From Hyphomicrobiales bacterium (GTDB lineage Bacteria > Pseudomonadota > Alphaproteobacteria > Rhizobiales > Rhizobiaceae): 64,000 bases of DNA. The stretch is from assembly GCA_017305835.1 (NCBI GenBank), contig JAFKJY010000050.1:1-64000 (forward strand), read 5' to 3'. Below the pieces are notes generated by a model that worked only from the letters and a program-made list of their open reading frames with translations, was not told the DNA's origin and ran no database searches. Position 1 is the stretch's first letter, and each line of letters begins with the position of its first letter. A program made the translations under genes and the position numbers. Of this stretch, positions 13,101 through 63,241 are shown in pieces.

Positions 13101-13716
13101 GCGCGTCGGTGAGACGGGCCATGCCGGCGGGCAGCGAGGCGCGCGCGGCCGGCACCAGCCGCTTGACCAGCCTGTCGGTCTCGCCGGCCACTTCGAGGGC
13201 GAGCCGCCGCAGCGTCTCCGCCGCGAGGCCGAGCTCGCCGAAGCCGGGGGAGGCGGCGACCAGCGCGCCGGCGCGGTCGACCAGCGCGACGAACTGGCCT
13301 TCGCCGGAAAGCCCGGCGATCGCCCGGCGGGCGACGTCCTCGCGCGGCCGGCTCGCGGCGACCGGGTCGGAGGCAGCGAGCAGGATCGCGGCCTCGCCGT
13401 CGGGCATGGTCACGCCGACGGCGGCGAAGGAGAGCATCCGCCCACCGAGCCGCAGCGCCAGCGAGCGGCCTTCGGCCACGGCGGGGAAGCCCGGCGTCGC
13501 CTCGATCTGGCGGCGCGCGGCGACCGGCAGTTCGGGGTCCGTCCCGATCAGCGAGAAGATGTCGTCGTGGCCCAGCAGCGCCGCGCCCGGCCCGTTGGCC
13601 CACAGCACCTCGTCGAGCGGCACCGACAGCACGAGCAGCGCGTCGCCGGCGGACAGCCGCCCGCGCACCGCTTCCAGAACGGCGACATCGAGGAAGGAAT
13701 AGGACCGCGAACCCAT
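10147..13716 (-). CDS. pdhS: Multi-PAS sensor histidine kinase, PdhS/DivJ/PleC family
   Basis: A 1189-residue hybrid of sensor and kinase modules without membrane segments. The N-terminus (SYSFLDVAVLEAVRGRL) resembles rhizobial PdhS/CbrA-type kinases, which control DivK and the cell cycle and can mark cell poles. A first PAS-like region starts near residue 320, a second near 705 and a third near 822; long Ala/Pro/Glu-rich linkers (about 220-315 and 440-700) separate them. The dimerisation domain holds HEIRTPLNAIIGFSE with the phospho-accepting histidine at residue 967, typical of DivK-partner kinases. ATP-binding boxes NLLSNAIRYTP, RDTGIGM and GTGLGLPL follow. Its role as PdhS is inferred from architecture; another member of the family is possible. 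Confidence 0.8.
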   Translation of the reverse strand: MGSRSYSFLDVAVLEAVRGRLSAGDALLVLSVPLDEVLWANGPGAALLGHDDIFSLIGTDPELPVAARRQIEATPGFPAVAEGRSLALRLGGRMLSFAAVGVTMPDGEAAILLAASDPVAASRPREDVARRAIAGLSGEGQFVALVDRAGALVAASPGFGELGLAAETLRRLALEVAGETDRLVKRLVPAARASLPAGMARLTDALNLLMVVDEQVLEAAEETVADPAAPAEAEASAPASPAEQPEPAEVTATEPAQPEPQVTKPAEPEAAPTATRPAAPGRSDEDGWYFNGAGREPHPAPKAGHPGGEAPHPAPAAELSSMPLRFVWRTDAEGRFSAISDEFRTAFGEAASDIVGRPFGEVARAFGLDPDGEIAGLLARRDTWSGRSVLWPVAGTDLKVPVDLAALPVYGRDRGFEGFRGFGVARMGDAMVDPEAIGLALAGIQEPAADEAPEAGTEEAPAAEAPAATLGEQPAPPAEDPFRGEPPALKSDTARPAGSDKIIRLEERRPGNAARGLSAAERLNFREIGEKLRNAGLVSAGEPQAPADTAPEAEAAPAEATPPMAEQPAAARPHDEPQAGEVAPDVEATEARAEPESVETAAEPEASETDAPNAAAFEAEAAEPSEDATGEAVVETPVEAEGEPDREDTSAPAPEAAEAQPAADTVTPEAPRPAEAPAPHVAAAFLPSAFAGLAAQAPAGGVDTALLSRLPLPLLVHAGDRLFYANREFLQITGYNSLAALDEAGGLGAIFGEPYASDDAAQRKLRLRRRDGAEFPVDAFLQSVGWDGGKALLLALRRAEEPAAVAPAAAPLPEAGDVDARLEELRTIIDTATDGVVIIGNDGKIRSISRPAEALFGVDGFNLVGQPFTSLFAMESQKAAGDYLAGLAENGVASVLNDGREVIGREAQGRFIPLFMTIGRLPQASGFCAVLRDITNWKRAEENLTEARAQAERASSHKTEFLARVSHEIRTPLNAIIGFSELMLDEKFGPIGNDRYKDYLRDINKSGNHVLDLVNDLLDISKIEAGQQEMSYEAVSLAEVLGEAVAMMQPQANRERVIIRSSFASRLPEVVADLRSVRQIALNLLSNAIRYTPAGGQVIVSTAYEASGDIVMRVRDTGIGMAAAEIEQAMKPFKQINALKRPRGDGTGLGLPLTKAMVEANRARFAISSAPGEGTLVEITFPSTRVLAH

Positions 13717-13868
13717 GGACTCCGTCGGAAGGCGTTATCGTTGTCGGTTAACGGATTGGTAATAAATGCAAGGCCCGCCTGCGTCCAGATTTGCCCATCG
13801 CGGCGCCGGGCGAACTGCGCCATTGGTTAACTTCCACAGGCTTTTATGACGCGCTGCAAAATTTATTG

Positions 13869-13897
13869 TTGCAATGCACAAAAGACGGGCCTATATG
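13869..13897 (+). promoter_or_regulatory. Phasin promoter with a PhaR-like box
   Basis: A sigma70-like promoter: -35 TTGCAA (13869-13874), 17-base spacer, -10 TATATG (13892-13897), placing the start near 13904, some 45 bases before the phasin ATG. Overlapping the -35 is TGCAATGCA (13870-13878), which fits the TGC-N3-GCA type of site known for the PHB-responsive repressor PhaR of alphaproteobacteria. A repressor there would block the polymerase until PHB is present. This is a sequence match only. Confidence 0.42.
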
Positions 13898-13948
13898 GAG
13901 GTCAAGAACGAGACATCGCCGCATGTGGGCGACCGAAAGGACCGAACC

Positions 13949-14404
13949 ATGAGCAAGACCGCAACCAAGACGGCCGAGATCGCCGAGTTTCCGGCGTTCG
14001 ACGCGAGCCAGGCCACCGATCAGTTCCGTGCCTTCGCCGAGAAGGGCGTCGAGCAGTCCAAGGAAGCCTATGCGCGCATCAAGACCGGCGCCGAGGAGGC
14101 CCAGAAGGTCCTCGAGGCGACCTTCGAGCAGGCCAAGAGCGCCGGCAACGAGCTGTCGCTGAAGTCGCTCGCCGCGCTGCGCGCCAACACCGAAGCCGGC
14201 TTCGCCCATGTCGAGGCGCTCCTCGGCGTGAAGTCGGTCGCCGAGTTCTTCGAGCTCCAGGGCGCCTTCCTGCGCCAGCGCTTCGAGACCATGGTCGAGC
14301 AGGCCAAGGACTTCCAGGCCGCCTCCTCCAAGGCCGCCGAAGAGGTCGTCAAGCCGGCCAAGACCGCCTTCGAGAAGTCGCTGAAGGAACTGAAGGTCGC
14401 CTGA
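13949..14404 (+). CDS. Phasin family protein
   Basis: A 151-residue, soluble, helical protein of the phasin type, which coats polyhydroxyalkanoate granules. It is rich in Ala, Glu and Lys, with amphipathic helices (EQSKEAYARIKTGAEEAQKV; VEQAKDFQAASSKAAEEVVK) and no membrane segment. The start at 13949 leaves a GAAAGGA ribosome site; an in-frame ATG at 13874 would overlap the promoter. It is monocistronic as far as proteins go, but its last codons contain an EcfG-type promoter for the small RNA that follows at once. No terminator separates them, so a share of the phasin message may read into the RNA. Confidence 0.88.
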   Translation: MSKTATKTAEIAEFPAFDASQATDQFRAFAEKGVEQSKEAYARIKTGAEEAQKVLEATFEQAKSAGNELSLKSLAALRANTEAGFAHVEALLGVKSVAEFFELQGAFLRQRFETMVEQAKDFQAASSKAAEEVVKPAKTAFEKSLKELKVA

Positions 14405-14410
14405 GGCGTT
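14386..14410 (+). promoter_or_regulatory. EcfG-type general stress promoter inside the phasin 3' end
   Basis: GGAAC (14386-14390), a 16-base spacer and CGTT (14407-14410) match the consensus of EcfG/SigT/RpoE2 promoters exactly. The -35 lies in the last codons of the phasin gene and the -10 just after its stop. The predicted start is near 14417, a few bases before the first stem of the small RNA. Confidence 0.65.
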
Positions 14411-14416
14411 ATCATA

Positions 14417-14538
14417 GCGAACACCCGCGGGACGGTATCCTCCTCCCACCAGAACGCGGGCTGAAGGCCGGCACCTCCTCCCGCCGGCCGGACATAAGGA
14501 AAAGACCGGGATCCTCCTCCCCCCGGTCTTTTTCTTTT
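14417..14538 (+). ncRNA. Small RNA with three CCTCCTCCC (anti-Shine-Dalgarno) hairpin loops
   Basis: Three consecutive hairpins each show CCTCCTCCC in the loop: stem CCCGCG/CGCGGG (14424-14429, 14455-14460) with the motif at 14439-14447; stem GGCCGGC/GCCGGCC (14466-14472, 14483-14489) with the motif at 14474-14482; stem AAAGACCGGG/CCCGGTCTTT (14501-14510, 14522-14531) with the motif at 14513-14521 and a following T-run, which makes it the terminator. The motif is complementary to ribosome-binding sites. This layout is like the rhizobial suhB/alpha-r14 type, the Rhodobacter 'cuckoo' RNAs and Caulobacter GsrN (C-rich loops, SigT promoter). The start is inferred from the EcfG-type promoter; which family it belongs to would need a covariance search. 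Confidence 0.82.
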
Positions 14539-14578
14539 TTTGGCTGCCTGCAAAGCGTCCTGCGCCTCATGCGCGGCC

Positions 14579-14607
14579 TTGAAACTTTCCCGGATTGTCC
14601 TTATTGG
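14579..14607 (+). promoter_or_regulatory. Probable tRNA-His promoter
   Basis: -35 TTGAAA (14579-14584), 17-base spacer and -10 TATTGG (14602-14607). Transcription would start near 14614, about 32 bases before the mature tRNA 5' end. It stands right after the terminator of the small RNA, so the tRNA has its own transcript. Confidence 0.45.
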
Positions 14608-14645
14608 GACGCTGCGCCGCCACGTGGTGCGTGCGCGCGACCTGT

Positions 14646-14722
14646 GCGGTTGTAGCTCAGCTGGTTAGAGCGCCGGATTGTGGATCCGGAGGTCCTCGGT
14701 TCGATCCCGAGCAACCGTACCA
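14646..14722 (+). tRNA. tRNA-His (GTG anticodon)
   Basis: A 77-base tRNA with encoded CCA (14720-14722). Acceptor arms are GCGGTTG (14646-14652) and CAACCGT (14712-14718); the anticodon GTG is at 14680-14682 between CCGGA/TCCGG arms; the T arm is CTCGG-TTCGATC-CCGAG. The discriminator is A73, the 1-72 pair is G-U, and the base before G1 is T, so no G-1 is encoded. Most bacteria have G-1 and C73 in tRNA-His; the A73/U72 form without G-1 is the known variant of one alphaproteobacterial clade. Confidence 0.97.
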
Positions 14723-14783
14723 TTTCCTTTTCCTCCTCAGACGTGATCGTCCTGCGATGTGATCGCCCGCGGCTTCCGCCGCC

Positions 14784-14808
14784 GGAACCATCGCGCCTGC
14801 CCGCTGTT
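14784..14808 (+). promoter_or_regulatory. EcfG-like promoter before the small-protein cluster
   Basis: GGAAC (14784-14788), a 16-base spacer and TGTT (14805-14808); one base off the CGTT core. Transcription would start near 14815, giving a short leader with GGGGAGG (14821-14827) before the ATG at 14833. The good fit of start, ribosome site and ATG supports it, but the -10 mismatch keeps confidence moderate. Confidence 0.45.
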
Positions 14809-44171: not shown

Positions 44172-44196
44172 GGAACCTTTCGCCGCGCCGCTCGTT
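44172..44196 (+). promoter_or_regulatory. EcfG-type promoter downstream of groEL
   Basis: GGAAC (44172-44176), a 16-base spacer and CGTT (44193-44196): an exact consensus match for the alphaproteobacterial general stress sigma factor. It stands between the groEL terminator and a second terminator at 44240-44277, so the transcript would be short. Confidence 0.6.
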
Positions 44197-47110: not shown

Positions 47111-47815
47111 TCAGCCCCCCAGGAACGAGGCGCGGACGTCGGCGTTGGCGAGCAGCGCCTGGCCGGTGTCGGTGTAGCGGTTGCGGCCCTGCACGAGCAC
47201 GTAGCCGCGGTCGGCGATGTTGAGCGCCTGGCGCGCGTTCTGCTCGACCATCAGGATGGCGATGCCGGTGGCGGCCACCTCGATGATGCGGTCGAACAGC
47301 TCGTCCATGACGATCGGCGAGACGCCCGCCGTCGGCTCGTCGAGCATCAGCACCGACGGCTTCGTCATCAGCGCGCGGCCGACGGCGACCTGCTGGCGCT
47401 GGCCGCCCGACAGCTCGCCGGCCGGCTGGCGGCGCTTCTCCTTCAGCACGGGGAACAGGTCGAACACCTGCGCCATCGTGTCGGAGAAGTCGTCCTCGCG
47501 GATATAGGCGCCCATCTCCAGGTTTTCCTGGACGGTCATGGTGGTGAAGACGTTGTTGGTCTGCGGCACGAAGCCCATGCCGGCCTTGACGCGGTCCTGC
47601 GGCGACAGCGCGGTGATGTCGCGCCCCTCCAGCGTGACGCGCCCCTCGCGCAGCCTGAGCATGCCGAACATCGCCTTCATGGCGGTCGACTTGCCGGCGC
47701 CGTTCGGCCCGACGATGACGGCGATCTCGCCTTTCTCGACCGAGATGTCGCAGCCGTGCAGGATGTCCGCCCCGCCATAGCCGCCCGTCATCTTGTCCCC
47801 GGCGAGGAAGCTCAT
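47111..47815 (-). CDS. livF: Branched-chain amino acid ABC transporter ATPase LivF-like
   Basis: A 234-residue ATPase. Walker A GPNGAGKST, signature LSGGQRQQVAVGRAL, Walker B VLMLDEPTAG and the switch His region MVEQNARQAL, in which Gln-Asn replaces the usual His as in all LivF proteins. The ATG at 47815 overlaps the livG stop by 4 bases (ATGA). It couples to LivH and LivM on the inner face of the membrane. Confidence 0.93.
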   Translation of the reverse strand: MSFLAGDKMTGGYGGADILHGCDISVEKGEIAVIVGPNGAGKSTAMKAMFGMLRLREGRVTLEGRDITALSPQDRVKAGMGFVPQTNNVFTTMTVQENLEMGAYIREDDFSDTMAQVFDLFPVLKEKRRQPAGELSGGQRQQVAVGRALMTKPSVLMLDEPTAGVSPIVMDELFDRIIEVAATGIAILMVEQNARQALNIADRGYVLVQGRNRYTDTGQALLANADVRASFLGG

Positions 47816-63069: not shown

Positions 63070-63241
63070 AAGGACACACCCGTTGGCCAACGCGGCAATG
63101 GCCGCGCGGTTCCGCCCCGGGTCTTGTGCCACTTGCGCCGGACCCTGTTAAGCGAAAGCTCGTGACAGGGTGAATGCGTTCGGTTAATTCGGCCGCCATC
63201 GCGGGCGAGGCCTCCGCCCGCACGCCCAGGGAGCCCGCCGC

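Follow-up and report, generated by a model that had tools for sequence, protein, structure and literature searches.

Directly downstream of a phasin gene, in the 64,000-nucleotide stretch of DNA analysed here (the window), lies a row of three hairpins, which raises the question of what RNA they belong to and from which promoter it is made. An earlier note had described hairpins that each present the same motif, with the last one doubling as the terminator, and this description was borne out. The motif CCTCCTCCC occurs three times in the window, where 0.78 occurrences are expected by chance over its whole length, and all three fall within 83 nt, with a T tract after hairpin 3. A covariance-model search in Rfam identified the segment as αr14 (RF02344) at 59.2 bits, over model positions 1–123 of 123, which exceeds the gathering cut-off of 58.8 bits by a narrow margin of 0.4 bit. 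The proposal of a known anti-Shine-Dalgarno sRNA family, for which the earlier note had suggested the αr14 model as a check, is thus supported. Features of the locus are listed in Table 1.

Table 1. Features of the phasin–αr14 locus, with positions in the window
Feature	Position	Strand	Description
Phasin promoter (probable)	13872..13899	+	TTGCAA-N17-TATATG, conserved TGTTGCAATGCACAA box on the -35 element
Phasin gene	13949..14404	+	151 aa, Phasin_2 PF09361 / TIGR01985
EcfG promoter (predicted)	14386..14410	+	GGAAC-N16-CGTT spanning the stop codon of the phasin; transcription predicted to begin at about 14416-14418
αr14 small RNA	14419..14537	+	RF02344, 59.2 bits, full-length match
Hairpin 1	14424..14460	+	CCTCCTCCC at 14439-14447, in part paired in the minimum-energy fold of the window sequence
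Hairpin 2	14466..14489	+	CCTCCTCCC at 14474-14482
Hairpin 3	14500..14541	+	CCTCCTCCC at 14513-14521; stem 14500-14510 / 14522-14532 plus T tract, intrinsic terminator
tRNA-His (GTG)	14646..14722	+	next gene in the block phasin / αr14 / tRNA

RNA folding shows that the αr14 region is more stable than its own shuffles (z = -3.2). All three hairpins carry CCUCCUCCC in the loop, and the 3' hairpin, a stem continued by the T tract, forms a Rho-independent terminator. In hairpins 2 and 3 the motif is wholly unpaired in the predicted fold. Loop 1 is on average 96% unpaired over 62 distinct relatives, and in the window's own sequence it is partly closed (~ 39% unpaired), as the loop motif can pair with GGGACGG. 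Judged by its sequence and predicted fold, the RNA behind the phasin gene is almost certainly an αr14 (“cuckoo”, NfeR1/CcsR-like) sRNA.

The closest described counterpart is NfeR1 of S. meliloti (Smr14C2, SmelC397; RF02344), which has the same three hairpins with CCUCCUCCC loops, the third being the terminator. The likeness extends to hypervariable stems, a length of about 120 nt and the full-length match to the Rfam model. The NfeR1 promoter is of the sigma-70 type, controlled by LsrB and NtrC, and does not depend on RpoE2 (PMC10746234, PMC7143759). Its three loops act redundantly at translation initiation regions, including that of ntrB (PMC10746234), and likewise target transport genes (PMC7143759). 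While the NfeR1 promoter carries LsrB (TGCA-N6-GCAT) and NtrC sites, the window RNA is phasin-linked, has a predicted EcfG promoter and has neither box; TGCA-N6-GCAT does not occur anywhere in the 64-kb window. The CcsR1-4/CIN1 RNAs of Rhodobacter sphaeroides (RF02791) share with it CCUCCUCCC hairpins behind a protein gene and a link to a stress-related alternative sigma factor, and likely also read-through and processing. CcsR is stress-induced, co-transcribed with its protein gene and processed by RNase E (PMC10253847). The gene ahead of CcsR is of the DUF1127 type (ccaF1), in place of the phasin gene ahead of the window RNA, and transcription depends on RpoHI/RpoHII; against RF02791 the window RNA scores 42.8 bits, below the cut-off of 65.3.

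Kinship with MmgR (αr8), suhB or GsrN, which the earlier note had brought up, was not upheld, since none of these scores here in Rfam; αr8 and suhB (RF00519) are absent among the matches of the window RNA up to E = 10. MmgR of S. meliloti has an anti-Shine-Dalgarno motif too, and restricts the levels of PHB and phasin (PMC7143759, PMC8401924), but it belongs to another family (αr8), is 77 nt long, is controlled by NtrC/AniA and is not phasin-linked. GsrN of Caulobacter crescentus resembles the window RNA as a general-stress sRNA whose C-rich loop pairs with target leaders, and it activates katG (PMC5869019). It is a functional parallel in part only, and neither an Rfam link nor sequence kinship to the window RNA was seen here.

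The synteny of phasin and RNA that had been proposed as a check is extensive. Of 80 named phasin loci, most of them from Mesorhizobium and some from Pseudaminobacter and Aquamicrobium, 79 have CCTCCTCCC immediately 3' of the stop codon; the lone exception (L126) is a locus that ends early at a contig end. Among 60 genera sampled from the window's family, 47 genomes contained a phasin, and the motif is present at 18 of these 47 loci, nearly all from different genera. Nearly all motif-bearing phasins fall into one cluster in the phasin tree (SH-aLRT 91), which includes a few loci without the motif; outside this cluster, the gene ends in a plain terminator hairpin. RF02344 scored above its cut-off in every phasin-linked relative tested. 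A tRNA lies at about the same position in eight of nine of these relatives (L088, L089, L090, L118, L166, L168, L179, and L185), and the block of phasin, αr14, and tRNA is therefore considered old.

The earlier note had also let its reading depend on conservation of the loops, and these proved invariant across 19 divergent αr14 copies, while the stems covary. Changes on both sides were observed at 18 of 27 stem pairs, with covariation of 0.409 compared with 0.189 in shuffled and at most 0.115 in slid alignments; the counts take related sequences as separate, and the slid control preserves their relatedness.

The phasin-linked RNA is not the sole αr14 copy in the genome. A second one, stronger at 97 bits, lies at G000:C123:25854-25975 (L001) after a DUF1127 gene; it carries the LsrB-type box TGCACAAAACGCAT (TGCA-N6-GCAT) at L001:1244 and is an ordinary NfeR1/CIN1-like member of the family. 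Weak αr14-like matches were also noted at L003:1501-1614 (37.4 bits) and L004:1501-1593 (26.5 bits). In each case there is one CCTCC-type hairpin where a gene ends, and these are possibly decayed or one-loop αr14 relatives.

Two promoters could supply the phasin-linked RNA. Upstream of the phasin gene, TGTTGCAATGCACAA together with TATAT is found in most relatives displayed among the family loci, and from this sequence we infer PhaR/AniA-like control of the phasin promoter. The sequence GCAATGCACAAAA is also present upstream of the DUF1127-αr14 locus (at about 1240 of L001). At the other end of the gene, the exact EcfG consensus that had been reported across the phasin stop codon is indeed there. 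Its parts are GGAAC at 14386-14390, a 16-nt spacer, and CGTT at 14407-14410; the phasin TGA occupies 14402-14404, αr14 follows directly 3' of the gene, and the -35 box is inside the coding sequence.

How much weight this site can bear was considered from several sides. The exact GGAAC-N16-CGTT pattern occurs four times in the window compared with 0.7 expected, and 94 times in the genome compared with 38 for the reversed pattern, and a lone match is therefore weak evidence. The other three exact matches in the window are at 44172-44196 (+), 47122-47146 (+), and 63089-63113 (-). Since GGAAC derives from the K-E-L codons of the conserved phasin C-terminus, free evidence is limited to CGTT and the spacing. 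That the consensus is the right one for the host follows from its phyR-nepR-ecfG locus (G000:C161), where PhyR (381.7 bits with the subfamily model), NepR (50 bits), and an adjoining ECF sigma factor are encoded, and which carries exact GGAAC-N16-CGTT on both divergent sides.

In a search through 395 genomes of the family, done with a looser motif than the strict pattern tried before, the full EcfG arrangement at the phasin stop codon was disclosed in 22 genomes of 11 genera, the remaining hits being scattered. The strict pattern, used across 297 genomes of the order, had found the window only, in a sample with few relatives of the right clade. CGTT stands at +3 after the stop codon in 6 of 18 αr14 loci, with two hits over 64 other offsets (binomial about 3e-10, assuming independent loci). 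When best-match scores were compared with those of shuffled downstream sequences, the observed value was reached in 0 of 500 shuffles at αr14 loci, while at loci without αr14 it did not clearly exceed them (35 of 500). The exact site is absent in siblings from the window's own genus (L077-L080, L119), which keep the RNA, and phasin-αr14 loci of core Mesorhizobium lack it as well; about nine changes are needed to place the EcfG label on the phasin tree. As far as sequence comparison can tell, the EcfG promoter is recurrent in several genera and not universal to phasin-αr14 loci. The claim of an EcfG-driven RNA hence stands in part: comparative evidence and the intact phyR-nepR-ecfG locus speak for it, while core Mesorhizobium and the own-genus siblings do without the promoter. 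In the window genome itself, there is good reason to think that the predicted promoter is active.

One further phasin locus, L175 (G328), combines an exact EcfG site at its stop codon with a single degenerate TCCTCCC hairpin; here the EcfG promoter apparently persists after the decay of the RNA with three loops.

In core Mesorhizobium, a spacer of ~ 100 nt separates phasin and αr14. The box TGC-N11-GCA, mostly as TGCAACAAAAGGTCGCA, is present in 60 of 62 long Mesorhizobium spacers compared with 1.6% of shuffled spacers, and in the named Mesorhizobium loci L090-L165 it is located ~ 60 nt upstream of the first CCTCCTCCC. An NtrC motif of this form has been described for NfeR1 (PMC10746234), and the presence of the box suggests a different, NtrC-type promoter input in Mesorhizobium. 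The window locus has neither the long spacer nor the box.

An EcfG start at the window locus has to be weighed against the possibility that the RNA is derived solely from the phasin 3'UTR, by phasin transcription (sigma-70, PhaR/AniA-type) followed by processing, with the EcfG match arising by coincidence from phasin codons. GGAAC does encode K-E-L, and is present without CGTT in L087, L133, L144, L154, and L160; the lack of the promoter in the window's genus siblings points the same way, as does the precedent of R. sphaeroides, in which CcsR RNAs are cut from a protein-coding precursor (PMC10253847). Coincidence does not account well for the recurrence of CGTT at precisely this spacing in 11 genera, with differing flanks and at almost no other offset, nor for an EcfG-match effect that fades or vanishes at phasin loci lacking αr14, so we regard an exclusive 3'UTR origin as unlikely. 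Less probable still, and quite improbable in our estimate, is an αr14 promoter that, like that of core Mesorhizobium, answers to housekeeping or nitrogen-status signals, with no EcfG role here. Such a promoter is favoured by the TGC-N11-GCA box of the Mesorhizobium spacers, which the window lacks together with the spacer itself; no sigma-70-like site was found in 13700-14800, and the distance from stop codon to RNA fits the EcfG site only.

It could also be argued that the structure, though elaborate, does no more than terminate or stabilise the phasin mRNA, without action in trans, as the third hairpin is a terminator and phasins outside the clade have a plain terminator hairpin in this place. 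Terminators need no such loops, yet three identical ones stay invariant while the stems covary, and identical loops recur in the DUF1127-linked copy of the same genome, which leaves very little room for this proposal. The reading that we favour, and consider reasonably likely as a whole, is a phasin-linked αr14 RNA with an EcfG start and additional read-through from phasin, repressing ribosome-binding sites of trans mRNAs.

According to this reading, general stress would lead sigma-EcfG to start a ~ 120-nt RNA at about 14417. A second supply would come from transcripts that start at the phasin promoter during PHB granule formation and run on into the RNA, and these may be trimmed by RNase E, as with CcsR. 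The exposed CCUCCUCCC loops, redundant with one another, would base-pair with ribosome-binding sites of the GGAGG type in trans mRNAs and so reduce the translation of these mRNAs. By analogy with characterized family members, repression through ribosome-binding sites is probable, while a specific role of the phasin-linked αr14 in storage is doubtful.

Autoregulation of phasin was not supported, as pairing of the motif with the phasin's own start region (-5.3 kcal/mol) is close to the background median (-5.4 kcal/mol). The phaC start region (GGGAGGAC) reaches -13.2 kcal/mol and is among the strongest tenth of start regions in the window. As a specific target phaC was rejected, because this pairing strength is generic, as given by a plain good ribosome-binding site. 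In the whole genome, GGAGGAGG-N3-9-ATG occurs in 48 places, compared with 6 for the reversed pattern. Among the first 30 of the 48, many are inside coding sequence and none was PHB-related by eye, and therefore no target is claimed. The tie between storage granules and stress put forward in the earlier note thus gains no support from targets.

The αr14 family, with NfeR1 and CcsR, is already known, and so is its mode of action. Phasin linkage and EcfG wiring of αr14 were not found in the literature searched, whose coverage did not extend to the cuckoo-RNA paper (Reinkensmeier and Giegerich 2015), and the phasin-αr14 linkage may already be in print. What is new here, on the evidence of the genomes compared, is the conserved and old order of phasin, αr14, and tRNA-His. 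A tentative further idea, which we hold to be possible without counting it as probable, is that phasin-αr14 is a rewired module. In it, a constant anti-Shine-Dalgarno RNA would have had its promoter exchanged between lineages (EcfG in many genera, the present one among them, and NtrC-type in core Mesorhizobium), so that the storage of carbon would be adjusted together with uptake-gene translation by different global signals.

Many rhizobia and related pathogens carry αr14 RNAs, whose control of nitrogen and transport genes has been shown. An αr14 fixed behind phasin, with a putative stress promoter or a nitrogen-type box depending on the lineage, would connect PHB storage with stress and with post-transcriptional control in a directly testable way. 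Phasin-αr14 loci would thus provide a natural series for promoter exchange on a constant small RNA.
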